Part shown: one piece after another, positions 4,914 through 19,450 of the stretch
How the letters are laid out: each line of letters opens with the position of its first letter
How positions within the stretch are numbered: position 1 is the stretch's first letter
Assembly: GCF_000384295.1 (NCBI RefSeq)
Contig: NZ_KB913037.1
Coordinates: 1,593,975 to 1,657,974, forward strand
DNA from: Amycolatopsis balhimycina FH 1894
GTDB taxonomy: Bacteria; Actinomycetota; Actinomycetes; Mycobacteriales; Pseudonocardiaceae
Direction: 5' to 3'
Length of the DNA stretch: 64,000 bases
Position numbers and translations under genes: made by a program
The notes under the pieces: generated by a model
What the model saw: the letters and a program-made list of their open reading frames with translations, nothing else
Told to the model about the DNA's origin: nothing
Databases searched by the model: none

Positions 4914-6062
4914 TCATGCGGCGAAGGACGCCGTACTGCTGATGCGTTGTCCTGGCAGCCCGTCGAACAGCCCGGTCGCGCCACGGGGCCGCCACAGCGG
5001 CACCGGGCCCGCGGCGGGCACGGCGTCAAGTGCCAGAGCTGCCGCCCGTTCCGCGGAGTCGAACGCCCGCTGGACGACCATCGCGTTGGCCACGCTTTGG
5101 GCAACGCTGCCGACCGGCCGCCCGCCGAACTGCACGGCGTCGGCGAAGTCGACGAGTTCCGCGCGGTAGCCGTTGTCGCTGCCGCGGAAGACCATCGTGT
5201 GGGTGGTGGCGTCGGGACTGCTGCGCGTCACGCGGCGCTCCGACTCGGATCCGGCGAGCACGAGCACGCCCTCGGTGCCGTACAGCCGCATCTCATTGGG
5301 TTCGGGCGGCACCGGGATTTCGGGGAAGGACGCGGTGTAGTTGCCGATGGCGCCTCCGGTGAAGACGAGGTTGAGCGTGAGGTCCGACGGTGCGTCGATC
5401 GTGCTGTTGGCTGCCTGTACGGCACCGTGCACCCGGGCGATGTCGCCGCACAGCAGCCGGATCTGGGCGATGTGGTGCACGCCGAAGTCGAGGTGCACGC
5501 CACCGCGGTACTGCGGCCGCTGTCGCCACGGCGTGCCGGTGAACCCGCCCGCCCGGGGCACCGACCGGCCGGCGTGCCGCCACGCCATCAGGTGCGGGCG
5601 GCCGATCGCGCCGTCGTCGAGCAGCGCACGGGCGTAGCGCAGATCATCGCGGTAGAAGTAGTTCTCCCCCACCACGAAGGTGCGGTCCGGGTGCCCGGCC
5701 GCCAGGGCCAGGAAGCCCGCGGCCTGCTCCGCGTCGGCACCGGCCGGCTTCTCGCAGAACACGTCCTTGCCTGCCGCGAGCGCGTCGCACGCCACCTCGT
5801 ACAGGTGCGGGATCGGCACCGAGATCAGCACGGCGTCCACGTCGTCGCGGGCCAGCAACGCGGCCCGGTCGGCGGCGGCCCGGGCCGGCTCGACCCCGCT
5901 GTAGCCGGCGAACCGCTTGCGCTGGTCCACAGAGGCGTCGGTGAACGCGGTGACGACGAACCGATCGGCGAGCCCGCACAACGCCGGCCAGTGCAGCTTT
6001 TCGACCGCGAGCCCGGTGCCGATCAGCCCCAGCCGGATCGGCCGGATCGCAGGTGCTGCCAT
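4914..6062 (-). CDS. Gfo/Idh/MocA family NAD(P)-dependent oxidoreductase
   Basis: The 382-residue product has an N-terminal Rossmann domain with LGLIGTGLAVEKLHWPAL near residue 11. It also has the family motif EKPAG, where the lysine takes part in catalysis, and a central GVHLDFGVHHIAQ segment matching the G-x3-D-x-G-x-H substrate-site signature. Such enzymes oxidise or epimerise sugars and inositols with NAD(P). The gene sits between the GntR regulator (46 bases upstream) and the binding-protein gene, all on the minus strand, so it probably acts on the sugar imported by that transporter. The specific sugar cannot be read from the sequence. Confidence 0.87.
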   Translation of the reverse strand: MAAPAIRPIRLGLIGTGLAVEKLHWPALCGLADRFVVTAFTDASVDQRKRFAGYSGVEPARAAADRAALLARDDVDAVLISVPIPHLYEVACDALAAGKDVFCEKPAGADAEQAAGFLALAAGHPDRTFVVGENYFYRDDLRYARALLDDGAIGRPHLMAWRHAGRSVPRAGGFTGTPWRQRPQYRGGVHLDFGVHHIAQIRLLCGDIARVHGAVQAANSTIDAPSDLTLNLVFTGGAIGNYTASFPEIPVPPEPNEMRLYGTEGVLVLAGSESERRVTRSSPDATTHTMVFRGSDNGYRAELVDFADAVQFGGRPVGSVAQSVANAMVVQRAFDSAERAAALALDAVPAAGPVPLWRPRGATGLFDGLPGQRISSTASFAA

Positions 6063-6108
6063 GGCTCGTCCGTCCTCGTCATCGGTTCCGGATCGGTCGT
6101 GCAGTGTG

Positions 6109-6843
6109 TCAGCGACGCTTGCTTCGCTGCCCCTTCTCCGCGAGGAGCGTGGAGTAGTTGTTGCTCAGGTGCCTGCGCATCGCCGCCCGGGCACCTTCCG
6201 GATCGCGCGCCACGAGCGCCTCGTAGATCTCCGTGTGCTGGGCGGTGGCGCGGTGCAGCCCGGCCGGCGCCTCGTTGGTGACGCGCCGGCTGGCCGTGCC
6301 GAGCCAGCGGGCGGAGTACATGATCCGGTCGAGGATGCGGTTGTCGGCCGCCCGGCAGATCTCCATGTGGAATTCGTGGTCGACCTCGAGGTAGGCCTCG
6401 GGGTCCGTCTCGAGCGCCGCCATGCGGCCGATCTCGTCCCCGAGCCGGGCCAGCGTCTCGTCGGTGATGCTGGCCGCGGCCATGGCGGCCAGTTCGGGCT
6501 CGAGCAGTGCGCGCATCTGGTGCAGTTCCTGCAGCAGCTCCTCGACGCTTTCCGTGGGCAGCCACTCGATCAGCAACGGGCTCAGGTAGTCCCACTCCGC
6601 GCGGGGGCGCACGACGACGCGGCGGCCCTGCGCGACGTCGACGATGTCGAGCGAGGCGAGGATCTTGAGCGTCTCCCGCGCCACCACCCGGGAGACCCCG
6701 AACTCACTCGAGATCTCGAGCTCCGACGGGGCCCGGCCGTCCTCGATTTCGCCGCTGACGATGCGCCGGGTCAGGTGGGCCGCCACCTGCACCGGAAGAG
6801 TCCGGACCTTGACAGCGTCCGGAGACTCTTGTCTCCTTGGCAT
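6109..6843 (-). CDS. GntR/FadR (FCD) family transcriptional regulator
   Basis: This 244-residue regulator has an N-terminal winged helix (about 12-75) with the GntR recognition pattern SELEISSEFGVSRVVARETL. It is followed by an all-helical FCD ligand-binding domain with the metal-binding histidine signature (DHEFHMEICRAADN and QHTEIYEAL). FCD regulators usually sense sugar acids or carboxylates. It heads the minus-strand Gfo/Idh-transporter set and is divergent from the dehydratase gene, so it most likely controls both, probably through the site at 6852-6864. Start is the ATG at 6843; no good ribosome-binding site is visible. Confidence 0.88.
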   Translation of the reverse strand: MPRRQESPDAVKVRTLPVQVAAHLTRRIVSGEIEDGRAPSELEISSEFGVSRVVARETLKILASLDIVDVAQGRRVVVRPRAEWDYLSPLLIEWLPTESVEELLQELHQMRALLEPELAAMAAASITDETLARLGDEIGRMAALETDPEAYLEVDHEFHMEICRAADNRILDRIMYSARWLGTASRRVTNEAPAGLHRATAQHTEIYEALVARDPEGARAAMRRHLSNNYSTLLAEKGQRSKRR

Positions 6844-6851
6844 GTCATCAG

Positions 6852-6864
6852 CTTATAGGACAAG
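6852..6864. promoter_or_regulatory. Candidate GntR/FCD operator
   Basis: The 73-base region between the divergent GntR and dehydratase genes contains CTTATAGGACAAG, an imperfect inverted repeat with CTT.T / A.AAG ends. Its size and position fit an FCD-type operator. Assignment rests on position and partial symmetry only. Confidence 0.4.
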
Positions 6865-6915
6865 TTGAGCTTCGCGACAGTCCGTTTTTCGGCACTACCC
6901 GGCGGCGGGAGAGCA

Positions 6916-8073
6916 ATGCGGATCGTGAACGTGACGACGGCGGTGGTGGCCTACCACGGTGAGGCCACGCTGGTGCGGATCGACACCGACGAGGGCCTCA
7001 GCGGGTTCGGCGAGGCCAATCCCGATGCCGGCGCGGGTGCCGTCGTCGGGATGATCGGTTCCCTGACGCCGCTCCTGATCGGCGAGGACCCGCGCAACGT
7101 CGAGCGCTGCTGGGAGAAACTGCGCCGCAGCAAGGTTTTCGCGGGCGCCCAGGGCGGGGTGTTCGTGATCGCCCTGTCCGGGATCGAGCTCGCGCTGTGG
7201 GACCTCGCGGGTAAGGCCGCCGGGCAGCCGGTCCACCGGCTGCTCGGCGGGAAGTTCCGCGACCGGATCCGCCTCTACGCCGACTGCGGCGACGGCGACG
7301 ACCCGGCGGGCTCGATCGCCGGCTGCGTCGACCGGGCCCAGCGGATGGTCGCCGAAGGCTTCACCGCCCTCAAGTTCGACATCGACGACCTGCACCACCC
7401 GGCCAAGTTCGACGCCTTCAACCACACGATCAACGCCGCCGAGCTGCGCTCGATGGTCGAGCGCGTGGCAGCGGTCCGGGAAGCGATCGGACCGGACGTC
7501 GAGCTGGCCATCGACCTCCACGCCCGCTACGACGTGCCGAGCGCGTGCCGGATCTCGTGGGAGCTCGAGCCGTTCCACCTGATGTGGCTCGAAGAGCCGC
7601 TGCCGGCGGAGAACATCGACGCGCTGGTGCGGGTGCGCGCGCAGACCCGCACGCCGATCTGCGCGGGAGAAAACCTTTACCTGCGCTGGGGATTCCGCGA
7701 GCTGCTCGAACGCGGCGCCGTGGACGTGATCGAGCCGGACGTGCCGAAGTGCGGCGGCCTCGCCGAGGCGAAGAAGATCGCCAACCTCGCGGAGCTGCAC
7801 TACATTCCCTTCGCACCACACCTGGTGTCGACACCGCTGGGCACGATGGCCACCTCGCACCAGTGCACGGCGATCCCCAACTTCCTGGTCCAGGAATGGC
7901 ACGCCCTCGAGGAGCGCGCGGTGTGGGACAGCTACGTCCACGCCCCCGACGGCAGCGGCTCGATCGTCAAGGACGGCTACATCACGCTCCCCGACACTCC
8001 CGGCATCGGCGTGGAGCTCGACATGGACGGCGTCCGGGCCCACGCCGTCGCGGGCTACGGGGTGTTCGAGTAG
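6916..8073 (+). CDS. Enolase-superfamily sugar-acid dehydratase (mandelate racemase/MLE type)
   Basis: I chose the ATG at 6916 because it follows GCGGGAGAGC and starts the family-typical MRIVNVTTAVV; an in-frame codon at 6865 would add 17 unlikely residues. The 385-residue product keeps the superfamily architecture: capping domain, then a barrel with Lys153 (TALKFDID), metal ligands Asp200 (AIDLHARYD), Glu226 (WLEEPLP) and Glu252 (AGENLY), and the His-Asp dyad Asp275/His302 (EPDVPKCGG, APHLVSTP). This set matches acid-sugar dehydratases of the galactonate/mannonate kind, which form 2-keto-3-deoxy acids. It is divergent from the GntR regulator. The exact acid sugar is not determinable. Confidence 0.87.
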   Translation: MRIVNVTTAVVAYHGEATLVRIDTDEGLSGFGEANPDAGAGAVVGMIGSLTPLLIGEDPRNVERCWEKLRRSKVFAGAQGGVFVIALSGIELALWDLAGKAAGQPVHRLLGGKFRDRIRLYADCGDGDDPAGSIAGCVDRAQRMVAEGFTALKFDIDDLHHPAKFDAFNHTINAAELRSMVERVAAVREAIGPDVELAIDLHARYDVPSACRISWELEPFHLMWLEEPLPAENIDALVRVRAQTRTPICAGENLYLRWGFRELLERGAVDVIEPDVPKCGGLAEAKKIANLAELHYIPFAPHLVSTPLGTMATSHQCTAIPNFLVQEWHALEERAVWDSYVHAPDGSGSIVKDGYITLPDTPGIGVELDMDGVRAHAVAGYGVFE

Positions 8074-8122: not shown

Positions 8123-8947
8123 TCATTTCGCGAGCAAGGTGAGCAGCCGGGCCACCTCGTCCCGGACCGCGTCCCGGCCGGGGGCGATGTAGCGGCGGGG
8201 GTCGGTGAGAGCCGTGTGCGCCCCGAGCGTCGAACGCACAGCTTCGGTGAGCACCTGGTTCAACCGCGTTCCGATGTTGACCTTGGCGATGCCGCTCGCC
8301 ACCGCCCCGCACAGTCCCTCGTCGGGCACGCCCGAGGAACCGTGCAGCACGAGCGGCACCGGAACGCTGCGGGCGAGCGCGGCGATCAGCTCCTCGTCGA
8401 GCACCGCACTGCGGTCGGCCATGGCGTGCGACGATCCGACCGCCACCGCGAGCGAGTCCACGCCGGTCGCGGCGACGAACTCGCGGGCCTCGGCCGGGTC
8501 CGTGCGCACGCCGGGCGCGTGGGCGCCGTCCTTGCCGCCGATCTCGCCGAGTTCCGCCTCGACGCGGCAGCCCTGGGCGTGGCAGCGTTCGACGACGGCT
8601 TTCGTCCTGGCCACGTTCTCGGCGTAGGGCAGCGCGGCGGCGTCGAACATGACGGACGTGATGCCCAGGTCGAGCCCCTCGCGGATCAGCTCCTCGTCCT
8701 CGACGTGATCGAGGTGGACCAGGACGGGCACGGTCGCGGTCTCGGCCAGCCGCAGGCAGGCGAGCGCGAACGGCGCGAGCGAACCGTGGTAGCGGACGGC
8801 GTTCTGCGAAATCTGCAGCACCACCGGGAACCCGCTGCGCTCCGCGCCGGCCACGACGGCTTCGGCGTGCTCGATCAGGATCGCGTTGAACGCCCCGATC
8901 GCGCGTCGCTGCGCTCGCAGGTCGTCCAGCACCGTGGCCCAGTTCAT
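8123..8947 (-). CDS. Class II tagatose/fructose-1,6-bisphosphate aldolase (GatY/KbaY type)
   Basis: The start is the ATG at 8947, which overlaps the stop of the upstream kinase gene by 4 bases. The 274-residue product is a zinc class II aldolase. It has VHLDH (78-82) with catalytic Asp80 and zinc-binding His81, the SVMFDAAALPYAENV segment, EAELGEIGGKDG (130-141) and HGSSGV near the C-terminus. It should split a ketose-1,6-bisphosphate into dihydroxyacetone phosphate and glyceraldehyde 3-phosphate. As the last gene of an operon with an AgaS-type isomerase and a PfkB kinase, tagatose 1,6-bisphosphate is the best guess, although fructose 1,6-bisphosphate cannot be excluded. Confidence 0.88.
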   Translation of the reverse strand: MNWATVLDDLRAQRRAIGAFNAILIEHAEAVVAGAERSGFPVVLQISQNAVRYHGSLAPFALACLRLAETATVPVLVHLDHVEDEELIREGLDLGITSVMFDAAALPYAENVARTKAVVERCHAQGCRVEAELGEIGGKDGAHAPGVRTDPAEAREFVAATGVDSLAVAVGSSHAMADRSAVLDEELIAALARSVPVPLVLHGSSGVPDEGLCGAVASGIAKVNIGTRLNQVLTEAVRSTLGAHTALTDPRRYIAPGRDAVRDEVARLLTLLAK

Positions 8948-9876
8948 CGCATCCTCTCCACCTTCACGGCACTGATCCACCGGTCCCTGGCCGCGACGTC
9001 GATCTCGCCGGCGACCGGCCGCAGCACGGCGGCGGCCGACGTGGCGACCACGTCCGCGAGAGCAACCGGCCAGTCCACTTCGGACACTCCACCGGCGGCG
9101 GCCAGCTGTAGCGCCAGCGCGGCGGCTCCGGCGTCTCCGGCACCGGCCGAGTTGCCGGTGACGACCTCGGCGGGCCAGGCGCGCCAAGCACCCCGGGCGG
9201 TCACGGCGATCGCCCCTTCGGGGCCCAAGGTCGCGACCACCGCCGGGGCTCCCGCGGCCACGAGGTCCTGACAGGCGTCGACTCCGGGTCCGGCCAGTTC
9301 CGCCAGCTCGTCCTCGTTCGGCATGAGCACCGCCCCGCTGCCGGCGGCCTCGCGGAGGGCGGCGCCGGAGACATCGGCGATGACCGGCACGTCGTGCCGG
9401 GCGCACAGCCGGGCCGCCGTCGCCGGGACGTCGGCGCTCAGGCCCACCGGCACGCTTCCGGAGATCACGACGGCTCCCACCCCGGCCGCGAGCTCGGCGC
9501 GGAGAGCCTCGAGGATGCCGGTTTCCGCGGTCGCGTCAACCGGGGAGCCGGCCTCCTGCACCATCGTCGTCCCGTCGGCGGGAGTCACCACCGCCACGGT
9601 CCGCCGCACCGCGGGCAGCGCCGGGACGAGCCGGTGGGCGAGGCCCAGCCGGTCCAGCCCGTCCCGGAACTCGTCGGGCGTCCGGGTCGTGGTCAGCGCC
9701 AGCACCAGGCTCCGGCCGCCCAGTTCGCGGACCACCGCCGCGACGTTGACGCCCTTGCCGCCCGCGCGGGACCGGACGCCCGATACCCGCGTGGTCCCGC
9801 CGAGGTGCAGCGCGTCGGCCCGGTAGGTCACGTCGATCGCGGGGTTGAGGGTGATGGTGACGATCCGCGGCGTCAT
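8944..9876 (-). CDS. PfkB-family 1-phosphofructokinase / tagatose-6-phosphate kinase
   Basis: This 310-residue ribokinase-superfamily enzyme has the N-terminal TLNPAIDVTY typical of phosphofructo- and tagatose-6-phosphate kinases. It also has the GGKGVNVA signature (39-46) and the C-terminal anion-hole motif AGAGDAGAA, with the likely catalytic base Asp248. It should phosphorylate a ketose phosphate to the bisphosphate used by the next gene's aldolase. It overlaps the EamA gene upstream and the aldolase gene downstream by 4 bases each, so the three are co-translated. Context favours tagatose 6-phosphate. Confidence 0.88.
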   Translation of the reverse strand: MTPRIVTITLNPAIDVTYRADALHLGGTTRVSGVRSRAGGKGVNVAAVVRELGGRSLVLALTTTRTPDEFRDGLDRLGLAHRLVPALPAVRRTVAVVTPADGTTMVQEAGSPVDATAETGILEALRAELAAGVGAVVISGSVPVGLSADVPATAARLCARHDVPVIADVSGAALREAAGSGAVLMPNEDELAELAGPGVDACQDLVAAGAPAVVATLGPEGAIAVTARGAWRAWPAEVVTGNSAGAGDAGAAALALQLAAAGGVSEVDWPVALADVVATSAAAVLRPVAGEIDVAARDRWISAVKVERMR

Positions 9877-10790
9877 AGCGCGGCGCTGCCGAGGACCGGC
9901 TCGGTGGTCTTTTCCGCGCGGTACACCATCAGGGTCGAACCGGCCAGGGCCAGCACGATGCCCGCGATCTGGAACCCGGTGGGTGCGGCGCCGAAGAACA
10001 GCAGCGACAGGACGATGGTCAGCACAGGAGCGAGCGCGTTGGTCACCGGCGCCACGATCGACGCCTTGCCCCGGCTCATCGCCATCACGAGGAACAGCGC
10101 GCCGACCGAGTTGAGCAGCTGGGTCCCCGCGGTGAGCGCGGGCGCCTGCCACGGAAACGCCAGCGGGAGCCCGCCCATCATCAGCACCGCGACCGGGATC
10201 AGCAGCAACCCGCTGACGGTCATCCAGCCGAACGTCGAAGCGTCGTCCACCCCGGCGAGCGCGGCCTTGCGCATGAAGAACGCCTGGACACCCCACGCCA
10301 CGCAGACTCCCGCGGCCAGCACCAGGTAGAGCCACCCGCTGTCGCCGCCGTCACCGGTGGAGACGGAGAACAGCACGACGGCGACGAGCGCGAGCAGCAC
10401 GCCGGCCCACGACCACCCGCCGAGCCGTTCCCGCAGCACGGCGAACGCCAGCAACACCGTGACCGCGGGCGAAAGCGCGACGATCGGGAAGATCACGTAG
10501 GCCGGTCCGATGGTGAGGGCCTTGAACAGCAGCAGCTGTCCCCCCGCCCCGGTGAGCCCGATCAGCAGCCCGTACCCGGCGGCGACCCGGCCGCGGTCGA
10601 ACTTCTTGCCCCGCAGCGAGAACCACGCGGGCACGAGCATGGTCAGCGCCCAGACCACGTACACCATCGGGTCGGGGTAGGCGTAGAGCTTGGTGGGCAG
10701 GCTGGAAATGGCCCCCCACACCCCCCAGAACACCACCAGCAGTCCCGCGTACGGGATCCAGCCGCGGGTGGGCACACCTGATCCGGTCAT
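9873..10790 (-). CDS. EamA/DMT-superfamily membrane transporter
   Basis: The 305-residue product has about ten hydrophobic helices arranged as two EamA repeats (first ends near LRERLGGW, second near VLALAGSTLMVYR), typical of drug/metabolite transporters. GAGGAG lies just before its ATG. It sits between the amino-sugar kinase and the PfkB kinase in the same operon. It may therefore move the amino sugar or a pathway by-product across the membrane; direction and substrate are unknown. Most characterised DMT members export, but several carry sugars. Confidence 0.85.
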   Translation of the reverse strand: MTGSGVPTRGWIPYAGLLVVFWGVWGAISSLPTKLYAYPDPMVYVVWALTMLVPAWFSLRGKKFDRGRVAAGYGLLIGLTGAGGQLLLFKALTIGPAYVIFPIVALSPAVTVLLAFAVLRERLGGWSWAGVLLALVAVVLFSVSTGDGGDSGWLYLVLAAGVCVAWGVQAFFMRKAALAGVDDASTFGWMTVSGLLLIPVAVLMMGGLPLAFPWQAPALTAGTQLLNSVGALFLVMAMSRGKASIVAPVTNALAPVLTIVLSLLFFGAAPTGFQIAGIVLALAGSTLMVYRAEKTTEPVLGSAAL

Positions 10791-10799
10791 CTCGGCTCC

Positions 10800-11756
10800 T
10801 CAGTGAGGCAGGGACGCGGTGGAGTGGACTTGCCCGGCACGCAACGGGTGTCCGTGCAGGCGTGCCGCGTAGAGCGCGGCACCGATGTGCGGTTCCAGCA
10901 GTGGCTCACGCAGGTCGTACTCGAGGGAAAGCGCGTCGCGGAACGACGACAGCACGTGCGCCGACCCGAACATGCCACCGGAGTACGACACCGGAACCCG
11001 TTGTGCGGCGTCGAATCCGAGCGCTCCCCGGCCGACATCCACGAGCAGCGCGAGCTCCCGCCCGGCTTCCCGGAGCACTCCGGTCGCGACCGCGTCGCCG
11101 GCCTCCGCGGCCCGGGCCACGACCTTGCTCAGCGTCGCGACCTTGCCCCGGTCGCCGTGCCACTGGTTCACGACGACGTCGATCGCGTCGAAGTCGGCGG
11201 CGAGGCCGAGGGACTGGCGCATTTCCGCCACGAGCGGCCCGGCGGGCAGCCGCCCGTCGACCATGCGGCTGAACGCGTTCAGGCCCTGGATCGCCACCCA
11301 GTAGCCGGAGCCTTCGTCACCGAACAGCTCGCTCCAGCCGCCACCGCGCCACTGCTTGCCTTCGTGCTCGCCGTAGGCGATCGAGCCGGTGCCGGCGACG
11401 ACGTTGATGCCGTCGATCGCCCCCAGCGACCCGGCCCAGCCGCAGATCATGTCGTTGCCGCAGCGATAGTTTCCCGAACCGAGGATCCTGGCCGGTACCG
11501 CGTCGAGCACCGGCACGTCGGCACTGATCTCCCCGTAGGCAGGCAAGCCGAAGAAGGCGTACGTGATGTCCGAGACCGGAATACCCGCGGCGTGGCACAC
11601 TTCGCCGATCCCCTGGCGCAACAGGGGTTCCACGATCTGCAGACCTTCGCTCAGGTAGTACACGCTCGCGGTCCTGGCCTCCGCGACGACCCGGCCGTCG
11701 AGATCGACCAGGCAGAACGCCGTCTTCGTCCCCCCACCATCGACACCGAGGAACAC
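10800..11756 (-). CDS. BadF/BcrA-type amino-sugar kinase
   Basis: The GTG start at 11756 follows GGAGGTGAGC. The 318-residue product is an ASKHA-fold kinase of the family that includes N-acetylglucosamine kinase and the bacterial glucosamine kinase GspK. It has phosphate-1 loop GVDGGGTK (4-11), a catalytic Asp102 in GNDMICGWAG, phosphate-2 loop AGTGSIAYG (121-129) and GDEGSGYW (146-153). It should phosphorylate a hexosamine at O6 in the cytoplasm. It lies directly after the AgaS-type gene and ahead of the tagatose-phosphate enzymes. No deacetylase gene is present in the operon, so a free amino sugar such as galactosamine is the simplest substrate. Confidence 0.85.
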   Translation of the reverse strand: MFLGVDGGGTKTAFCLVDLDGRVVAEARTASVYYLSEGLQIVEPLLRQGIGEVCHAAGIPVSDITYAFFGLPAYGEISADVPVLDAVPARILGSGNYRCGNDMICGWAGSLGAIDGINVVAGTGSIAYGEHEGKQWRGGGWSELFGDEGSGYWVAIQGLNAFSRMVDGRLPAGPLVAEMRQSLGLAADFDAIDVVVNQWHGDRGKVATLSKVVARAAEAGDAVATGVLREAGRELALLVDVGRGALGFDAAQRVPVSYSGGMFGSAHVLSSFRDALSLEYDLREPLLEPHIGAALYAARLHGHPLRAGQVHSTASLPH

Positions 11757-11757
11757 T

Positions 11758-12888
11758 TCAGCTCACCTCCGGAGGCGCGAATTCGTGGATGACCACGCCC
11801 TGCACGACGCGGTTCACCTCCCCTTCGGGGAACGGGTTGTCCGGGGTGACGCCGAGGGCGAGCGAGCAGGCGAGCGCCGTGGTCTGCGCGGCGATCACGA
11901 CGAGCAACGCGTAACCGGCAACGGGTACGCCGGGTGGCGAGGGCACGGGCCAGATCCGTGCGCCACCGACCTCTCCCGCGTCGTCCCCGCCCACCACGAC
12001 CACCCGCTCCTCGCCGAGTGACTGCACCAGCTCGCGCGCGATGTCCACGTCATAGCGCCGCGCGTGCGGATCGATGGAGAGGAAGACCACGGCGATGGTG
12101 CGCTCGTCGAGCACCGACTTCGGTCCGTGCCGGAAGCCCAGCGCGGAATCGGCGAGGCCGACCACCTCACCCCGGGTCAGCTCGAGGCACTTGAGCGCGG
12201 CCTCCCGGGCCAGCCCGCGAAGCGGCCCGGAGCCCAGGAACACCAGCCGGGCCGGCTTGGCGCCGGAAATCGCCGGCGCGTGTTCCGCGGCACCGTCGAG
12301 CACCGCCGACCCGGCGCGCGCCAGCGCGTCGACGTCGACGTCCACGCCGAAGGCGAGCAGTGCCGCCAGCGCCATCCCGGTGAACGAGGAGGTCATCGCG
12401 AATCCGCGGTCGTTGACCTCGTCCGGAAGGTTCACGACGACCGCGTTCCCGGCGCCGGACCACCGCCGTGCCAGCCGGCCGCCCGGGTCGCACGTGATCA
12501 CCAGGTGCCGCAGCTCCGGCGCCAGCCGCTGCAGCAGGTCCGCCGCCGCGACGGACTCGGGGCTGTTGCCACTGCGCGCGAAGGACACCAGCAGGATCGG
12601 CCGGTCGTCCACGACCACGGCACCCGGGTCGGCGACGATCTCCGTGGTCGCGATCGCCTCGACCGGCCGGCCGAGGTGGCGCGCGAGATCGCGGGCCACG
12701 ACCTCGCCGACGAACGCCGAGGTACCCGCACCGGTGAGCACGATCCGCCACCCGGAGAGCCCGATCAGCTTCCCGATTTCCGGCCGGGCCCGCCGCACGG
12801 CCTCCGCCACCCGGATCCAGGTGGCGGGCTGCTGCTCGATCTCCCGCGCGGTCCAGCTGTCGCCGGGCCACCGCCCGCTGCTCTGCAT
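11758..12888 (-). CDS. agaS: SIS-domain amino-sugar-phosphate deaminase/isomerase (AgaS-like)
   Basis: This 376-residue protein has two SIS domains. The first carries the phosphosugar-binding GAGTSAFVG (53-61) and SFARSGNSPES (102-112), and the second holds GLADSALGFRHGPKS. The size and the HGPKS element match AgaS, which converts galactosamine 6-phosphate to tagatose 6-phosphate plus ammonia, and the related NagB-II glucosamine-6-phosphate deaminases. It is the first gene of a five-gene minus-strand operon with a good GGAGG before its ATG. A matching operator lies upstream in the gap shared with deoR. The downstream kinase and aldolase favour the tagatose route over the fructose route. Confidence 0.82.
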   Translation of the reverse strand: MQSSGRWPGDSWTAREIEQQPATWIRVAEAVRRARPEIGKLIGLSGWRIVLTGAGTSAFVGEVVARDLARHLGRPVEAIATTEIVADPGAVVVDDRPILLVSFARSGNSPESVAAADLLQRLAPELRHLVITCDPGGRLARRWSGAGNAVVVNLPDEVNDRGFAMTSSFTGMALAALLAFGVDVDVDALARAGSAVLDGAAEHAPAISGAKPARLVFLGSGPLRGLAREAALKCLELTRGEVVGLADSALGFRHGPKSVLDERTIAVVFLSIDPHARRYDVDIARELVQSLGEERVVVVGGDDAGEVGGARIWPVPSPPGVPVAGYALLVVIAAQTTALACSLALGVTPDNPFPEGEVNRVVQGVVIHEFAPPEVS

Positions 12889-12905
12889 AGGTGTTGCCTC
12901 CGATT

Positions 12906-12924
12906 TCCGGGACGTTCTCCCGGA
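12906..12924 (-). promoter_or_regulatory. Leader hairpin before the agaS operon
   Basis: Perfect 7-bp arms TCCGGGA / TCCCGGA with a 5-base loop fall in the untranslated leader of the operon, a few bases before its ribosome-binding site. This could affect translation or mRNA stability; no function is shown. Confidence 0.35.
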
Positions 12925-12964
12925 GACTCATCCGCTCCCCGCGCCAGGGGCAAGGTTCGGTGTC

Positions 12965-12992
12965 CAAATGCGCATCCGGATTGAGCGTTTCG
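12965..12992. promoter_or_regulatory. Candidate DeoR operator 1 (agaS-deoR gap)
   Basis: This 28-base element starts CAAATGCGCAT and ends TTGAGCGTTTCG. It matches the perfect palindrome at 13820-13847 at 22 of 28 positions. It overlaps the likely -35 of deoR and stands upstream of agaS, which is where an autoregulated repressor should bind. Confidence 0.65.
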
Positions 12993-13008
12993 CCGGCTGT
13001 CGTAGGCT
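12981..13008 (+). promoter_or_regulatory. Likely deoR promoter, possibly leaderless
   Basis: TTGAGC (12981-12986), a 16-base spacer and TAGGCT (13003-13008) place the transcription start at or next to the ATG at 13015. The message could therefore be leaderless; no ribosome-binding site is visible before the ATG. The -35 lies within operator 1. Confidence 0.5.
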
Positions 13009-13014
13009 CGGCCC

Positions 13015-13821
13015 ATGTCCACGCGGAAACGGCGCACCACCCGGGCCGAGCGGCTCTCGGAGCTGTTGCGGGTGCTCGCGGACACCGGTTCGCTGCACGT
13101 GGGTGAGCTCAGCGCGCGGTTCGGCGTCTCCTCCGCCACGCTGCGGCGCGATCTGGCCAAATTGGCGGAACAGCGGCTGCTGACCCGCACCCACGGCGGC
13201 GCGCGGCCCCGGGGGCACACGAACGAGGTGCCGCCGCCCTACCGGGAAAGCCGTTCCCGGGACGCCAAACGCGCCATCGTGCACGCGGCGATCCGCACGT
13301 TGCCCGCCGGCAAGCACGTCATCGCCCTGACCGGCGGCTCGACCACGAGCGAACTCGCCAGGGAGCTGCCGGGCCGGGCGGATCTGACGGTGGTCACGAA
13401 CGCGTTGAACATCGCGATGGACCTGGCCCTGCACCCGCGGCTGAAGCTGGTCGTCGTCGGTGGCGTCGCCCGGCCGCAGTCCTACGAGCTGGTCGGCCCC
13501 TGGGCCGAGCACGTGCTGGCCTCGATCAGCGTCGGAACGGCTTTCGTCGGTGTGGACGGCATCGACGCGACGGCGGGCATCACCACCCACGACGAGAACG
13601 AGGCCAGGACCAACCGCGCCATGCTCGGCCGCGCCCAGCGGGTGGTCGTGCTGGCCGACGGCAGCAAGCTCGGGCGGACCACCCTCGCCCGCATGGGTGA
13701 CATCCAGGACGTGCACGAGGTCATCACCGACGCCTCCGCCGCACCCGGCGCGGTCGCGGCGATCCGCCGGGCCGGTGTCCGGGTCACCGTCGTCGAGGTC
13801 GGTGCCACCGCGGAGCGGTGA
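13015..13821 (+). CDS. DeoR-family transcriptional repressor of the galactosamine genes
   Basis: The 268-residue regulator has an N-terminal DeoR helix-turn-helix (about 10-62; HVGELSARFGVSSATLRRDL), followed by the family linker LTRTHGGARP. The C-terminal sugar-phosphate-binding DeoRC domain contains the phosphate loop ALTGGSTTSELA and the VADGSKLGRTTLARMG segment near the end. DeoR proteins of this type sense phosphosugars. It lies between the divergent agaS operon and the GH114 gene, and both its flanks carry the same 28-bp operator-like element. It therefore probably coordinates extracellular polymer cleavage with intracellular catabolism. Confidence 0.9.
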   Translation: MSTRKRRTTRAERLSELLRVLADTGSLHVGELSARFGVSSATLRRDLAKLAEQRLLTRTHGGARPRGHTNEVPPPYRESRSRDAKRAIVHAAIRTLPAGKHVIALTGGSTTSELARELPGRADLTVVTNALNIAMDLALHPRLKLVVVGGVARPQSYELVGPWAEHVLASISVGTAFVGVDGIDATAGITTHDENEARTNRAMLGRAQRVVVLADGSKLGRTTLARMGDIQDVHEVITDASAAPGAVAAIRRAGVRVTVVEVGATAER

Positions 13822-13847
13822 AACGCGCATCGCGAATGCGCGTTTCG
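13820..13847. promoter_or_regulatory. Candidate DeoR operator 2 (upstream of GH114 gene)
   Basis: Two perfect 11-bp arms, GAAACGCGCAT and ATGCGCGTTTC, are separated by CGCGA. The element begins at the last codons of deoR and abuts the GH114 promoter. There is no T-run after it, and its close match to the site at 12965 argues for an operator rather than a terminator. Confidence 0.65.
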
Positions 13848-13876
13848 TTGACCGCGGTGATCGTCCTGCCTACCTT
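13848..13876 (+). promoter_or_regulatory. Likely promoter of the GH114 gene
   Basis: TTGACC (13848-13853), a 17-base spacer and TACCTT (13871-13876) lie directly after operator 2, about 35 bases before the ATG. A repressor bound at operator 2 would touch the -35 box. Confidence 0.5.
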
Positions 13877-13911
13877 TCGCCGACAACAGCCCCGACGATG
13901 ATGGAGTCCGG

Positions 13912-14727
13912 ATGAAGCGTTCTCTCCCCGTCCCCGGCAAGCGATTCGCTTCTTTCACGGCGGCGGGCGCACTGGCCGCCGGCCTGCTCGCCGCGGCCGC
14001 CGCCCCGGCCTCGGCCGCGGTCACCCTGCCCCCGCAGGCCGCCGGGTTCGACTACCAGATCGGCGGCGCCTACACCCCGCCGTCCGGGGTGCAGATCGTC
14101 AGCCGCGACTTCTCGGCGGCCCCCGCGAGCGGCAAGTACAACATCTGCTACCTCAACGCTTTCCAGGCGCAGAAGGGCGCGGACGGCGAATGGCAGAGCG
14201 ACCTGCTGCTCCGCGATGCGAACGGCAACAAGGTAGTCGACCCTGACTGGAAGGAAACCCTGCTCGACCTGCGCACCGCCGACAAGCGCAGCCGGGTGGC
14301 GGCCAAGGTCGGCAGCTGGATCGACACGTGCGCTTCGAAGGGGTACCAGGCGATCGAGCCGGACAACTACGACAGCTACAGCCGGTCCAAGAACCTGCTC
14401 ACCACAACGCACGCGCAGGAGTACATCAAGCTCCTGTCCGCCTACGCCCACGGCAAGAACCTCGCCATCGCCCAGAAGAACACCCCGGAATTGGCCGGCA
14501 ACCGGGTCGCCAACGGCCTCGACTTCGCCGTCACCGAAGAATGCGGTGAATACGAGGAGTGCGCCGACTACGCCGGCCCGTTCAACAACCGGGTGGTCGA
14601 CGTCGAGTACACCGCTTCGGGCATGAGCAAGGGCTGCCCGGAGTGGAAGAGCAAGATCAGCATCGTCCGGCGTGACCTGTACGTGGTGCCCCAGGGGACG
14701 AGCGGGTACGTCCGCAAGACCTGCTGA
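13912..14727 (+). CDS. Secreted GH114 endo-alpha-1,4-polygalactosaminidase
   Basis: The 271-residue product starts with a clear Sec signal peptide, with cleavage likely after APASA near residue 35. The mature part is a GH114-type TIM barrel. It has the GYQAIEPDNYDSY segment (144-156) with acidic residues Glu149 and Asp151, and FAVTEECGEYEEC (205-217) with Glu209/Glu210, at the positions where this family keeps its acidic catalytic pair. Three or more cysteines suggest disulfides. GH114 enzymes cut alpha-1,4-linked galactosamine polymers such as fungal galactosaminogalactan. The divergent operon encodes galactosamine-phosphate catabolism and shares the operator, which strongly supports this function. 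The exact catalytic residues are assigned by motif, not alignment. Confidence 0.85.
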   Translation: MKRSLPVPGKRFASFTAAGALAAGLLAAAAAPASAAVTLPPQAAGFDYQIGGAYTPPSGVQIVSRDFSAAPASGKYNICYLNAFQAQKGADGEWQSDLLLRDANGNKVVDPDWKETLLDLRTADKRSRVAAKVGSWIDTCASKGYQAIEPDNYDSYSRSKNLLTTTHAQEYIKLLSAYAHGKNLAIAQKNTPELAGNRVANGLDFAVTEECGEYEECADYAGPFNNRVVDVEYTASGMSKGCPEWKSKISIVRRDLYVVPQGTSGYVRKTC

Positions 14728-14737
14728 CGCGCGCACC

Positions 14738-14766
14738 TTGACACGTTCGATCGCGCTCGCTTTACT
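14738..14766 (+). promoter_or_regulatory. Likely promoter of the ABC-GH4 operon
   Basis: A consensus TTGACA (14738-14743), a 17-base spacer and TTTACT (14761-14766) lie 11 bases after the GH114 stop and about 180 bases before the binding-protein start. No copy of the DeoR operator is visible here, so this operon may be controlled separately. Confidence 0.55.
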
Positions 14767-14942
14767 GCTGTCCACGTCGCAACGAACACCCGACGTCAGA
14801 GGTATGCCCAGCCGGTATGTCGGTTCCCCCGCGAGCCCGGACTGAGTCGCCAGGACCTCTTCGAGAGTCCGAGGCGGGGTCGTGCCCACCATCATCCGGA
14901 GTTTTCGATGATGTCGTTTCCGTTCCCCGGCAAGGCACCCTG

Positions 14943-16208
14943 ATGGACCGCCGCGGATTCCTGCGCGGCGCCGGCGGTCTGGCCCTCGGTGCCGCCCTCG
15001 CCGGCTGCGGCCCGGCGCGGGCCACCGGGGGCCCGGTCACCGTCGAGATCTGGCACGGCCAGACCGACACCGGCAAGAAGGTGCTCGACGCGCTCGTCGC
15101 GGACTTCCACCGGACCCACCCCGGGATCCGGATCGACCTGGGCGGCGGCGTCCTCGCCGACGCGATGCTCCAGAAGATCACCGCGGCGCTCGCGTCCGGG
15201 TCGTTCCCGGACATCGCCTACGTCTTCGGTTCGGACCTCGCCAGCGTGGCGCGCAGCCCCAGCGTCGTCGACGTCACCGGCCTCGTCGACGCGGGCCCCG
15301 GCTTCTGGGCACCGGCCCGGGAAGCGGTCACCGTCAACGGCCGCGTCCGCGCGGTCCCGGCGCTGCTCGACTCACTGGCCGTGGTGTGCAACAAGGAGCT
15401 GTTCGCCAACGCCGGGCTCCCGTTGCCCGCCGCGGGCTGGACGTGGGCCGACTTCGTCGGCACAGCACGGAAACTCACCGACGCGGGCAGCGGCACCTTC
15501 GGCACCGCCTGGCCCGCCACCGGCGACGAGGACACCGTGTGGCGGCTGTGGCCGATGATCTGGGACCTCGGCGGCGACGTCATCGGCGCCGGCGGACGCG
15601 GCATCGGGTTCGCCGACCAGGGCGTCCGTGTCCTCGAAGTCGTCCGCGACCTCGCCGCGGCGCACGCCGTGTACCTCGACCCGAAGACCGGCAGCGAGCA
15701 GATGTACCAGGCGTTCGAAGCCGGTCACATCGGCATGGTCGCGACCGGCCCGTGGCAGCTGCCGGACATCACCGACGCCGGGATCGACTACGCGGTCGTG
15801 CCGCTGCCGAGCTTCAGCGGCCGTCCGGTCACCATCTCCGGCCCGGACACCTGGACGCTGTTCGACAACGGCGAAGAGCGCGTAGCGGCCGCCCAGACGT
15901 TCCTGTCCTGGCTGGCGGACCCGGCCCAGGACGTCCGCTGGGACGACGGCGCGGGCAGCCTCCCGCTGAGCCGCCGGACGCAGCAACTGCCCGCGTGGCA
16001 GGAGAAAACCGCCGAGACCCCCGGCCTGCCGGTCTTCGTCGACGCGCTGGAGAACGCTCGCGTCCGGCCCGTGCACCCGGCCTACCCCCAGGTGTCGCAG
16101 GCCCTCGGCACCGCGATCGTCGCTGTGCTACTCGGCCGGGCGACGCCGGCCGACGCGCTGCGCGACTGCGCCGCGGCCGCGAACGCCGCCTTGATCATTC
16201 CGCGATAG
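14943..16208 (+). CDS. Sugar ABC transporter substrate-binding lipoprotein (family 1)
   Basis: I chose the ATG at 14943 because it begins MDRRGFLRGAGGLALGAALAGC, a twin-arginine-type lipoprotein signal with lipobox LAGC; the 42 in-frame residues upstream look non-coding. The mature protein has the family 1 pattern: VEIWHGQTDTGKK at the start, ASGSFPDIAYVFGSD, and aromatic-rich ligand-site segments (WTWADFV, VWRLWPMIWDLGG). It should capture an oligosaccharide outside the cell and deliver it to the two permeases that follow 9 bases downstream. Lying next to a GH114 endo-enzyme, oligo-galactosamine or a galactoside is a reasonable ligand. Confidence 0.88.
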   Translation: MDRRGFLRGAGGLALGAALAGCGPARATGGPVTVEIWHGQTDTGKKVLDALVADFHRTHPGIRIDLGGGVLADAMLQKITAALASGSFPDIAYVFGSDLASVARSPSVVDVTGLVDAGPGFWAPAREAVTVNGRVRAVPALLDSLAVVCNKELFANAGLPLPAAGWTWADFVGTARKLTDAGSGTFGTAWPATGDEDTVWRLWPMIWDLGGDVIGAGGRGIGFADQGVRVLEVVRDLAAAHAVYLDPKTGSEQMYQAFEAGHIGMVATGPWQLPDITDAGIDYAVVPLPSFSGRPVTISGPDTWTLFDNGEERVAAAQTFLSWLADPAQDVRWDDGAGSLPLSRRTQQLPAWQEKTAETPGLPVFVDALENARVRPVHPAYPQVSQALGTAIVAVLLGRATPADALRDCAAAANAALIIPR

Positions 16209-16217
16209 GGAGCCGCC

Positions 16218-17132
16218 ATGCCCGGACTGCCGAGGCCCATCACCGTCACACCCGTACAACACCGGCGGCGCCGTGAGACCGCGACCGCGTGGGCGTACGT
16301 CTCCCCCGCCGTGCTCATCATCCTCGGCCTCGGCGTGGTACCCGTGGCTTGGTCGCTCGTGCTGTCCTTCCAGGCCGACGACCTGGTGACGCCGAGCCAT
16401 TGGGTGGGCCTGGACAACTACGCCGCGCTCGCCCAGGACCCGCACTTCGCCCAGGCCGTGGGGAACACCGTGCTGTACACGGTGCTCTACGTCCCGCTCA
16501 GCATCCTGTTCGGGTTCCTGCTGGCGCAGGCGCTGAACCGGCGCATCCGCCTGGTCGGCGTCTACCGGACGCTCGTGTTCGTCCCGTTCGTGCTGTCGGC
16601 GACGGCCCAGGGCGTGCTGTTCTCCTTCATCCTCGACCCGCAGTTCGGCGCGGCCAATTCGCTGCTGCACCACCTCGGCGTGTCGCCGCAAGGCTTCCTG
16701 ACCGACCCGGCGCAGGCGCTGCTGGTGCTGGTCGGCATCACGCTGTGGAGCGGGACCGGCTTCTGTGTCGTGGTGTACCTCGCCGCGCTGCAGGACGTCC
16801 CGCCGTCGCTGGTCGAGGCCGCGCGGCTGGACGGTGCCGGAACGTGGCGGGTGCTCCGGCACGTGACGCTGCCCGCGGTCACCCCGGTGACGGCGTTCCT
16901 CGTGCTGTGGCAGCTGATCACGTCGCTGCAGGTGTTCGACCTGGTCTACGTGACGACCAAGGGCGGCCCGCTCGGCTCGACGACGGTCATCGTCTACTTC
17001 GTCTGGGAGCAGGCGTTCAAGAACTTCACCGCCGGCTACGGCGCGGCGTCGGCCTACGTGCTCGCGCTGGCCCTGCTGGTCGTCGTGGTCGCGGTTCGCG
17101 TGCTGCGCCGTCCCGGGAAGGCGCTCCGATGA
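16218..17132 (+). CDS. Sugar ABC transporter permease, MalF type
   Basis: This 304-residue inner-membrane permease has six hydrophobic segments and the EAA loop VEAARLDGAGTWRVLRHVTLP that docks on the ATPase. It lies 9 bases after the binding-protein gene and overlaps the next permease by 4 bases (ATGA). No ATPase gene lies in this operon, so a shared ATPase elsewhere is expected. Confidence 0.88.
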   Translation: MPGLPRPITVTPVQHRRRRETATAWAYVSPAVLIILGLGVVPVAWSLVLSFQADDLVTPSHWVGLDNYAALAQDPHFAQAVGNTVLYTVLYVPLSILFGFLLAQALNRRIRLVGVYRTLVFVPFVLSATAQGVLFSFILDPQFGAANSLLHHLGVSPQGFLTDPAQALLVLVGITLWSGTGFCVVVYLAALQDVPPSLVEAARLDGAGTWRVLRHVTLPAVTPVTAFLVLWQLITSLQVFDLVYVTTKGGPLGSTTVIVYFVWEQAFKNFTAGYGAASAYVLALALLVVVVAVRVLRRPGKALR

Positions 17133-18019
17133 CGATACAGCCGACACGGCCCGCCCGGCTCGACGTGTCCGCGACCCACACCGCGCTGCCCGTGCTGCGC
17201 CGGCCCCGGCTGCCCTTCAGTCCCTGGCACCTGCTGCTCGTGCCGCTGGCGCTGCTGTTCGCGGCGCCGCTGGTGTGGCTGCTGCTCAGCTCCGTGATGA
17301 GCAACGCCGAGATCAACCGGTTCCCGCCCGCGCTGTGGCCGTCCCATGTGGACTTCTCGGGGTACCGCTATGTCCTCGACAACGCGCTGTTCGTGCGCTG
17401 GTTCACGAACTCGCTGATCGTCTCGGCGGTGACCGTCGTGTCGAACCTGCTGTTCGGCACGCTGGGCGGGTACGCGTTCGCGCGGATGCGGTTCACCGGC
17501 TCGCGGACACTGCTCGCGCTGATGGTCGCGACGATGGCGATCCCCTTCCAGCTCACCATGATCCCGACGTTCCTGGTGATGAAGAAGCTCGGCCTGATCG
17601 ACACCCTCGGCGCGCTCATCGTGCCGTCGCTGGTGACGCCGTTCGCGGTGTTCCTGCTGCGCCAGTTCTTCCTGTCGCTGCCCCGGGAGCTCGAAGAGGC
17701 GGCGTGGATCGACGGCTGCTCGCGGTTGCGCGTGCTGTTCACCATTGTGCTTCCGCTGTCGCGGCCCGCGCTGAGCACGGTGGCCGTGCTGACGTTCCTC
17801 AGCACGTGGAACGACCTGACCTGGCCGCTGATCGCCGTCAACCACGACACGACCTACACGCTGCAGCTGGGGCTCACGACGTTCCAGGGCCAGCACCACA
17901 CGAACTGGGCCGCGGTGATGGCGGGCAACGTCATCACCGTGCTGCCCGTGCTGCTGGCCTTCCTCGGCGCGCAGAAGACGTTCATCCAGTCGGTCACTTC
18001 CAGCGGGCTCAAGAGCTGA
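17129..18019 (+). CDS. Sugar ABC transporter permease, MalG type
   Basis: The ATG at 17129 overlaps the stop of the MalF-type gene. The 296-residue product has six membrane spans, the MalG-typical FTNSLIVS region and an EAA loop LEEAAWIDGCSRLRVLFTIV. It forms the channel with the preceding permease. It is followed 32 bases later by the GH4 gene, which likely processes the imported sugar. Confidence 0.9.
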   Translation: MTIQPTRPARLDVSATHTALPVLRRPRLPFSPWHLLLVPLALLFAAPLVWLLLSSVMSNAEINRFPPALWPSHVDFSGYRYVLDNALFVRWFTNSLIVSAVTVVSNLLFGTLGGYAFARMRFTGSRTLLALMVATMAIPFQLTMIPTFLVMKKLGLIDTLGALIVPSLVTPFAVFLLRQFFLSLPRELEEAAWIDGCSRLRVLFTIVLPLSRPALSTVAVLTFLSTWNDLTWPLIAVNHDTTYTLQLGLTTFQGQHHTNWAAVMAGNVITVLPVLLAFLGAQKTFIQSVTSSGLKS

Positions 18020-18051
18020 CTGTCCACTTCGCACAATCGGATCGGATCTCC

Positions 18052-19359: not shown

Positions 19360-19450
19360 CGCGCGTGATCTGCCACCCCGGCGGCGGCTGTCAGTGCCAT
19401 CGTCCTGCGGGAGCATGGAACACCGGCTGTCATCGGACGAAGGAGTTCGC

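Follow-up and report, generated by a model that had tools for sequence, protein, structure and literature searches.

A candidate two-module locus for the use of alpha-1,4-linked galactosamine polymers in Amycolatopsis balhimycina

Background

In E. coli, the agaS gene is required for the use of both N-acetylgalactosamine (GalNAc) and galactosamine, and its product has been proposed to be a galactosamine-6-phosphate deaminase/isomerase (PMC3668189). The catabolic steps are already known from E. coli and others. At the level of the polymer, the bacterial members of glycoside hydrolase (GH) family 114 were said in 2025 to "remain elusive", and the available part of that paper leaves open why bacteria hold four such families; it also states that soluble production of a bacterial GH114 in E. 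coli had failed (PMC12054363). GH114 has been assigned to a set of GH families that occur together and concern the fungal cell wall, and the accessible text of that study names no GH4 partner (PMC7922503). Here we describe a locus of Amycolatopsis balhimycina FH 1894 in which a secreted GH114 protein stands between an aga operon and the genes of an ATP-binding cassette (ABC) importer and a cytoplasmic GH4. It occupies positions 8123-19359 of a 64,000-nucleotide stretch (the window; NZ_KB913037.1, 1,593,975 to 1,657,974) of a chromosome that forms a single contig of 10.86 Mb. We consider it likely that this locus is a two-module system feeding on alpha-1,4-linked galactosamine polymers, for example fungal galactosaminogalactan or polygalactosamine.

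An earlier note on this DNA, made from the letters and their open reading frames (ORFs), had recognised a galactosamine system in part of the locus and knew of no dedicated locus of this kind described in an actinomycete. This held in the open-licence literature: among the matches listed, with most subscription journals outside that scope, we found no description of a galactosaminan utilisation locus or of a GH114-linked GH4, and nothing relevant on galactosamine kinases. What was on record is a galactosaminidase activity in the actinomycete Streptomyces griseus, known since 1975 without a sequence (cited in PMC12054363, as far as its text was available).

Gene content and proposed pathway

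On the minus strand, the five aga genes (agaS, BadF, EamA, PfkB and aldolase, from 12888 down to 8123) overlap or almost touch. On the plus strand, a solute-binding protein (SBP), two permeases and GH4 are the next four genes after GH114. The nearest named records to the AgaS protein are from Amycolatopsis species, at 85-90% identity. All seven genes named by the earlier note were confirmed at their positions, with Pfam scores far over the cut-offs, and its view of them as a galactosamine system mostly holds. The end that it gave to the cluster, 14727, was not borne out, as the ABC and GH4 genes carry on to 19359. It had described only half of the system, missing the importer and the GH4 that are the most constant partners of GH114, and GH114 is not fixed in the aga operon, as discussed below. 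The listed start of the aldolase ORF (9406) was over-extended, and the true start lies at about 8947. The features are as follows.

8123..8947, minus strand: class II ketose-bisphosphate aldolase (GatY/KbaY/Fba type), predicted tagatose-1,6-bisphosphate aldolase; PF01116, 268 bits against a cut-off of 25.5
8944..9876, minus strand: PfkB-family hexose-phosphate kinase, predicted tagatose-6-phosphate kinase; PF00294
9873..10790, minus strand: EamA/DMT transporter, predicted galactosamine permease; PF00892, 94 bits
10800..11756, minus strand: BadF/NagK-type kinase, predicted galactosamine 6-kinase; PF01869, 164 bits against a cut-off of 31.5
11758..12888, minus strand: AgaS (SIS protein), predicted galactosamine-6-phosphate deaminase/isomerase; TIGR02815, 3c3j
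12964..12991, minus strand: predicted operator between agaS and deoR, GAAACGCTCAATCCGGATGCGCATTTGG; with corresponding sites in Amycolatopsis and Lentzea
13015..13821, plus strand: DeoR-family regulator, AgaR-like; PF00455 and PF08220
13820..13847, plus strand: second predicted operator, a perfect 11-bp inverted repeat just 5' of the GH114 start; present in 12 of 12 full clusters
13912..14727, plus strand: secreted GH114, predicted endo-alpha-1,4-galactosaminidase, catalytic residues D151 and E209; PF03537
14943..16208, plus strand: sugar ABC solute-binding lipoprotein (SBP); PF01547, 131 bits
16218..17132, plus strand: sugar ABC permease 1; PF00528
17129..18019, plus strand: sugar ABC permease 2; PF00528
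18052..19359, plus strand: cytoplasmic GH4 of the alpha-galactosidase subfamily, predicted exo-alpha-galactosaminidase/galactosidase; PF02056 and PF11975, NF011657

In the proposed pathway, the secreted GH114 would cut the alpha-1,4-galactosamine chain outside the cell, the ABC importer would take up the oligosaccharides, and the cytoplasmic GH4 would remove terminal alpha-galactosamine and/or alpha-galactose units. Free galactosamine would enter through the EamA permease. The BadF kinase would convert galactosamine to galactosamine 6-phosphate, which AgaS would deaminate to tagatose 6-phosphate with release of ammonia, and PfkB and the aldolase would take tagatose 6-phosphate to triose phosphates. 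An AgaR-like DeoR repressor, acting at two operators, would control both the aga operon and GH114. Fungal galactosaminogalactan is a plausible natural substrate.

The hydrolases and the importer

The GH114 protein scores 180 bits with PF03537 (cut-off 27; E 5.5e-53) and has a signal peptide, as judged by eye. It matches the Ega3 chains 6oj1 (E 6.9e-12) and 6ojb as well as chain 9ep6, and has no match to the Thermotoga maritima GH191 chain 2aam at E<=0.01; it is thus a GH114 member, over the Pfam cut-off and closer to GH114 than to GH191 structures. Chain 9ep6, which the PDB labels an alpha-galactosidase, is taken as FsGH114, the entry code occurring in PMC12054363. The catalytic pair proven in Ega3 is Asp189/Glu247 (PMC12054363); D151 and E209 of the window protein align with it and are invariant in all 44 distinct rows, the window included. 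The protein is accordingly annotated as a predicted endo-alpha-1,4-galactosaminidase. It is the only PF03537 match in the genome; across the family, 73 of 200 genomes have a match at E<=0.001 and 70 have one over the cut-off.

The N-terminus of the SBP carries twin-arginine and lipobox motifs (by eye), and with the two permeases it may supply parts of a CUT1-type importer. No ATPase gene was seen in the cluster, the rest of the genome not having been searched for one, so the importer probably borrows MsiK, the shared ATPase of actinomycetes.

The GH4 protein has no evident signal peptide and belongs to the NCBI alpha-galactosidase subfamily (NF011657, 574.5 bits against a cut-off of 486). Its cysteine motif is CHSV in 51 of 56 close rows; a literature search on this motif gave nothing useful. 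Although 23 positions separate the close GH4 clade from distant GH4 proteins, nothing firm on amine recognition can be drawn from sequence alone. An aminosugar oligomer is nevertheless the predicted natural substrate, because this clade is mostly found next to GH114 or to genes of sugar-phosphate pathways. The GH4 enzyme ChbF of E. coli acts on de-acetylated chitobiose phosphate, and the NAD-dependent GH109 acts on alpha-GalNAc; given these precedents, a 2-amino group should be no bar in principle. Since galactosaminogalactan also holds alpha-1,4-galactose (PMC3213105), the GH4 may clear galactose too. It is a tentative proposal, for which we would claim not quite an even chance, that this actinomycete GH4 subfamily is specialised as an intracellular, NAD-dependent exo-alpha-1,4-galactosaminidase and acts together with GH114 and the ABC importer. 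The three would make up the first bacterial system described for the use of fungal galactosaminogalactan, one that is modular and widespread over several actinomycete families.

The aga operon and the choice of sugar

AgaS matches TIGR02815 over residues 12-370 with 399.5 bits (E 1.3e-119) and aligns almost full-length to the tagatose-6-phosphate isomerase-type chain 3c3j (E 3.7e-81). On these two matches it is a member of the AgaS family of SIS proteins, despite a score under the curated model cut-off of 529. The nearest solved chain to the BadF protein is the N-acetylmuramic acid (MurNAc)/N-acetylglucosamine (GlcNAc) kinase 8zo3 (E 1.8e-26).

To see which genes accompany agaS elsewhere, partners were counted within 10 kb at 35 distinct AgaS loci outside the window, of which 11 are near-copies of the window cluster; the duplicate loci L030, L032, L033 and L034 had been removed. 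Loci here and below were read by tblastn with the window proteins, so that distant SIS, PfkB or BadF proteins may be missed; for example, the SIS protein at L055:11905-12816 was recognised by Pfam only. BadF was found at 34 of the 35 loci, the only one without it being that of Aeromonas, and EamA at 32, frequencies at which the grouping of the aga genes is not due to chance. The aldolase was found at 24. PfkB was present at 18 loci and GatZ/KbaZ at nine (identity confirmed with PF08013 for three), with eight loci having neither and none having both. The two look as if they were mutually replacing ways to handle tagatose 6-phosphate. That they never occur together points to this intermediate, and the replacement pattern makes galactosamine a better candidate for the sugar than glucosamine. 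No GatZ relative was found within the window. Of the GatZ/KbaY-type finish of the route suggested in the earlier note, the class II aldolase is present and GatZ is not, PfkB seeming to be its substitute.

A different reading of the same operon would be glucosamine (chitosan) catabolism, with BadF making glucosamine 6-phosphate and the SIS protein acting as glucosamine-6-phosphate deaminase. The nearest solved kinases are indeed GlcNAc/MurNAc kinases, and the SIS protein has a weak match to GlmD; the match to the AgaS family is far stronger (E 1.3e-119 against 6e-14). Moreover, the product of such a route, fructose 6-phosphate, needs neither PfkB/GatZ nor this aldolase, yet PfkB or GatZ is found at 27 of the 35 AgaS loci, and GH114 and an alpha-galactosidase-type GH4 would be the wrong hydrolases. 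We regard a glucosamine system as very unlikely.

In other Pseudonocardiaceae, an AgaS-BadF-EamA set adjoins a melibiase/GH31-like protein of 690 amino acids with a twin-arginine-like leader (L027:5390-7459 and L030:12490-14562), and a similar ORF is found at L029:5487-7559. This protein is perhaps a secreted exo-enzyme that supplies galactosamine or GalNAc to the EamA permease.

A shared predicted operator

One 28-bp site is found both between agaS and deoR and between deoR and GH114. Two weight matrices were built from agaS-deoR sites outside the window: matrix 1 used 12 loci, 11 of them distinct, and matrix 2 the six more distant loci alone. With matrix 1, the agaS-deoR site ranks first in the window (46.0) and the pre-GH114 site scores 32.4, compared with 9.4 for the next unrelated place; with matrix 2 the corresponding scores are 33.2, 28.6 and 15.8. 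The matrices hold no pre-GH114 site, which makes them the fairer test, although the window agaS-deoR site served as seed in finding their training sites. A pattern drawn from both window sites, applied to the whole genome with up to three mismatches, found these two places only, and its reversed control gave one match; because the pattern was written after both sites had been seen, its chance figures are optimistic. Both operator sites are present in all 12 full clusters. Related sites lie 5' of deoR in Lentzea, and the AgaS loci L062, L063 and L088, which belong to another family, have weaker ones that score 22-25. We infer that DeoR would bind at both operators of the window.

Conservation of the gene partnerships

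Three genome sets were compared, comprising 80 genomes of the genus, 200 of the family and 394 of the class. The genus cut-offs were E<=1e-40 for GH4 and AgaS and E<=1e-15 for GH114, and that for the class was E<=1e-50; many of the compared rows are near-copies. In the genus, this GH4 is found in 26 genomes, GH114 in 35 and AgaS in 16. All 26 genomes with this GH4 have GH114 within 4.1 kb of it, in one of two layouts (GH114-SBP-permease-permease-GH4, or GH4 adjoining GH114). In the family, GH4 is found in 15 genomes, 14 of which have GH114 within 6.4 kb, one of these with a GH4 fragment. A remnant of GH4 beside GH114, one third of the gene and with a stop codon, was noted in genome G027 (L101:9724-10146), an apparent decay of the pair.

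At the class level, GH4 occurs in 33 genomes and AgaS in seven. Among 35 GH4 loci fetched, 21 have a GH4 at least 48% identical to that of the window (close) and 14 a more distant one, with partners again counted within 10 kb. The close loci include GH114 in seven cases, AgaS in four and BadF in four; 16 of them have PfkB or aldolase, 18 have DeoR and 19 have the two ABC permeases. The distant loci have no GH114, AgaS or BadF at all, with PfkB or aldolase in four, DeoR in nine and ABC genes in 13. Four of the six AgaS genomes other than the window's own have GH4 within 4.3 kb, and at L059, L060, L062 and L063, which belong to two other families, the distance from GH4 to AgaS and BadF is 2-4 kb. 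Another genus of the family is represented by three genomes (L092-L094) in which GH114, ABC, SIS, PfkB, aldolase, GH4 and DeoR genes stand in one locus, the SIS protein being 31-32% identical to AgaS. GH4-ABC-DeoR operons with PfkB and aldolase and no BadF detected were seen at L068-L071 and L092-L094, with a distant SIS protein at L068 and L092-L094.

The GH4 tree has 70 rows, with matches below 85% coverage and identical rows left out. At least five changes of the GH114 label have to be placed on it, against a shuffled mean of 22.8, a comparison in which many rows are near-copies, and a 30-row clade spanning three families is GH114-linked throughout. The GH4-GH114 pairing thus recurs in other families.

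The link between GH114 and the aga genes is narrower. Within the genus, GH114 lies within 1.6 kb of AgaS in 13 of the 16 genomes with AgaS, namely the 12 full clusters and G256, which holds a further cluster, GH114-ABC-GH4, some 240 kb away from aga and GH114. The remaining three genomes, G234, G235 and G252, lack a GH114 next to agaS. Four Lentzea species keep six aga genes with no adjoining GH114, and two of these genomes hold GH114-ABC-GH4 elsewhere (L097 and L098). Lentzea albida is an exception to the genus-only linkage, having a 40%-identical GH114 located 3.4 kb beyond the aga operon. The expectation that GH114 and aga stay together in relatives therefore holds within the genus, where they also share the operator, and not outside it, where the two do not adjoin. 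For the family as a whole, in which the earlier note had proposed to look for the same gene set, full-length AgaS is found in 11 of 200 genomes; 10 of these 11 carry PF03537 over the cut-off somewhere, compared with 70 of 200 overall.

A GH114 tree of 44 rows (rows below 75% coverage, with a stop or identical left out; both trees are midpoint-rooted only) separates two types. Type a comprises the 12 full clusters, the aga-linked copy of G256 and the unlinked copies of G234 and G252 (support 96/90). Type b accompanies GH4 in the remaining genomes of the genus; a single copy of it, that of G085, has no GH4. In the window clade, a type-a GH114 adjoins the ABC-GH4 set that elsewhere in the genus goes with type b. 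Because the tree separates these types, the window cluster is a fusion of two modules. The simplest account would be that an aga-GH114 and a GH114-GH4 partnership met in the window clade and that the GH114-GH4 pairing outlived an exchange of the GH114 gene.

Several findings weigh against a dedicated galactosamine-polymer system. PfkB, the aldolase, AgaS and DeoR all score under the cut-offs of the named-enzyme models: PfkB reaches 203 of 216 bits with TIGR03168 and 100 of 410 with the LacC model, the aldolase matches the NCBIfam GatY, KbaY and Fba models, each below cut-off, and DeoR reaches 191 of 260 bits with NF040755 (AgaR). In G234 and G252, the type-a GH114 is unlinked and has no operator above threshold, and the pre-GH114 site of G256 is weak (17.9); GH114 is not a fixed member of the aga operon. 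The gap from GH114 to the ABC genes yielded no operator, and a co-regulation of the ABC-GH4 genes thus rests on their position. The 12 full clusters together make up a single young clade. In the genus, nine of the 35 GH114 genomes are without this GH4. Of the 11 family genomes with full-length AgaS, only two, each belonging to the genus, have GH114 adjoining it; in the class GH114 is near AgaS in one of seven, the window's own (none of the six others). Among the 21 close class-level GH4 loci, 14 have no GH114 and just four have BadF, leaving the kinase step elsewhere unexplained. The presence of DeoR and ABC genes does not discriminate, as they are also common beside distant GH4 (9 of 14 and 13 of 14).

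Some of these points would suit two neighbouring systems, with aga and GH114 serving galactosamine and the ABC-GH4 genes an ordinary melibiose/raffinose-like alpha-galactoside. The window GH4 is in the alpha-galactosidase subfamily, whose known members act on neutral alpha-galactosides. The fusion of two modules, the missing operator before the ABC genes and the 14 of 21 close loci without GH114 all fit such a division. It is harder to reconcile with the presence of this GH4 beside GH114 in 26 of the 26 genus genomes that have it and throughout the 30-row clade over three families, or with the GH4 relatives that two other families keep next to AgaS and BadF, since it is not clear why a system for neutral alpha-galactosides should partner with GH114 or AgaS/BadF. 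We consider two separate systems unlikely, and prefer a single galactosamine-polymer system of two modules.

Acetylated or free amine

The presence of agaS without agaA is a published sign of the use of galactosamine rather than GalNAc (PMC5583593). With one NagA query, no NagA relative was found in the window, which therefore has no clustered agaA-type deacetylase, and a nagA-like gene lay within 10 kb of AgaS at only one of the 35 loci, that of Aeromonas. The earlier note took the lack of a deacetylase gene to fit a de-acetylated polymer. None is clustered; the evidence is weak and only suggestive, because the genome has a nagA elsewhere, at 4.97 Mb. This gene leaves GalNAc open and counts, like the points gathered above, against the free-amine interpretation, and in E. 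coli nagA can stand in for agaA (PMC3668189).

The substrate could accordingly be N-acetylated, such as GalNAc-rich galactosaminogalactan or other GalNAc glycans, with the unlinked NagA de-acetylating GalNAc 6-phosphate. In docking, the groove of FsGH114 fits acetylated and non-acetylated oligomers equally, whereas fungal GH114 is described as acting on more de-acetylated polymer (PMC12054363). Together with the near-absence of nagA beside AgaS, the latter leads us to think an N-acetylated substrate rather improbable, if the most credible of the alternatives, and to retain the free-amine polymer. A polysaccharide-deacetylase-like ORF (by eye) was seen several kb from AgaS-BadF-EamA in two genomes belonging to one genus (L028:2786-3454 and L031:14828-15496).

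Finally, the locus might turn over the cell's own Pel-like galactosamine exopolysaccharide or biofilm matrix. The genome has no match to PF11997, which we take to be the PelF glycosyltransferase, and thus no sign of Pel biosynthesis (one of 14 control genomes, T. maritima, has a match); this speaks against a self-made Pel polymer, and a full importer and catabolic pathway fit feeding better. Pel is a related bacterial galactosamine polymer on which related hydrolases act (PMC12054363). Even so, turnover of an own polymer seems highly improbable, and feeding on an external galactosamine polymer remains our preferred interpretation.

Neighbouring genes

Upstream of the locus lie Gfo/Idh (4914-6062), FadR-type regulator (6109-6843) and galactonate-dehydratase-like (6919-8073) genes, which are not counted into the cluster. 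Among six named Amycolatopsis loci, both FadR and the dehydratase are kept at L046, and L038 has only the dehydratase, at a distance of 5 kb; none of the three genes occurs in five further full clusters, within the flanks fetched. Further upstream, a second sugar-type ABC permease pair (1413-3203) is about 30% identical to the first. This pair and the genes at 4914-8073, the last of which encodes an enolase-type protein, probably form a separate sugar-acid system. Directly after GH4, an esterase-like protein (19394-20692) has an S9-like match over the cut-off and weak EstA Ig-like and PHB-esterase matches; no counterpart was found among the matches listed for the loci of relatives.

Comparison with known systems

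A conserved catabolic locus would give one direct answer to why bacteria have endo-galactosaminidases, namely that they eat the polymer. The locus also names candidate partners, namely a GH4 that would act on oligomers and a kinase and a permease for galactosamine. It offers an enzyme pair and a transporter as candidates for the breakdown of the fungal galactosaminogalactan matrix, and provides an operator that can be used to seek the regulon in other genomes.

The closest described pathway is the aga/gam (kba) regulon of E. coli, with which the locus would share the AgaS step, the tagatose-6-phosphate route and a class II aldolase, and whose AgaR repressor binds before agaR, kbaZ and agaS, a likeness to the arrangement proposed here (PMC3668189). 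It differs in its uptake by the phosphotransferase system, in KbaZ and in the AgaA deacetylase, and its 13-gene cluster, in the part of the account available, is without a polysaccharide hydrolase (PMC3668189). The window has instead a BadF kinase, EamA and ABC transporters and PfkB, no KbaZ, and in addition GH114 and GH4. Ega3 of Aspergillus fumigatus, FsGH114 of Fusarium solani and the Pseudomonas sp. 881 enzyme belong to the same Pfam family as the window GH114 and have the conserved Asp/Glu pair; they are single enzymes, with no catabolic locus described in the accessible parts of the sources. The window GH4 resembles the MelA-type GH4 alpha-galactosidases in passing NF011657 and in its CHSV motif, and differs from them in that its clade is found mainly next to GH114 or to genes of sugar-phosphate pathways. 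In overall design, with a secreted endo-enzyme, a lipoprotein-dependent ABC importer, a cytoplasmic exo-enzyme and a local regulator, the locus is like polysaccharide utilisation loci and the carbohydrate-active enzyme-ABC clusters of actinobacteria, from which it would be set apart by its predicted substrate class, alpha-1,4-galactosaminan.

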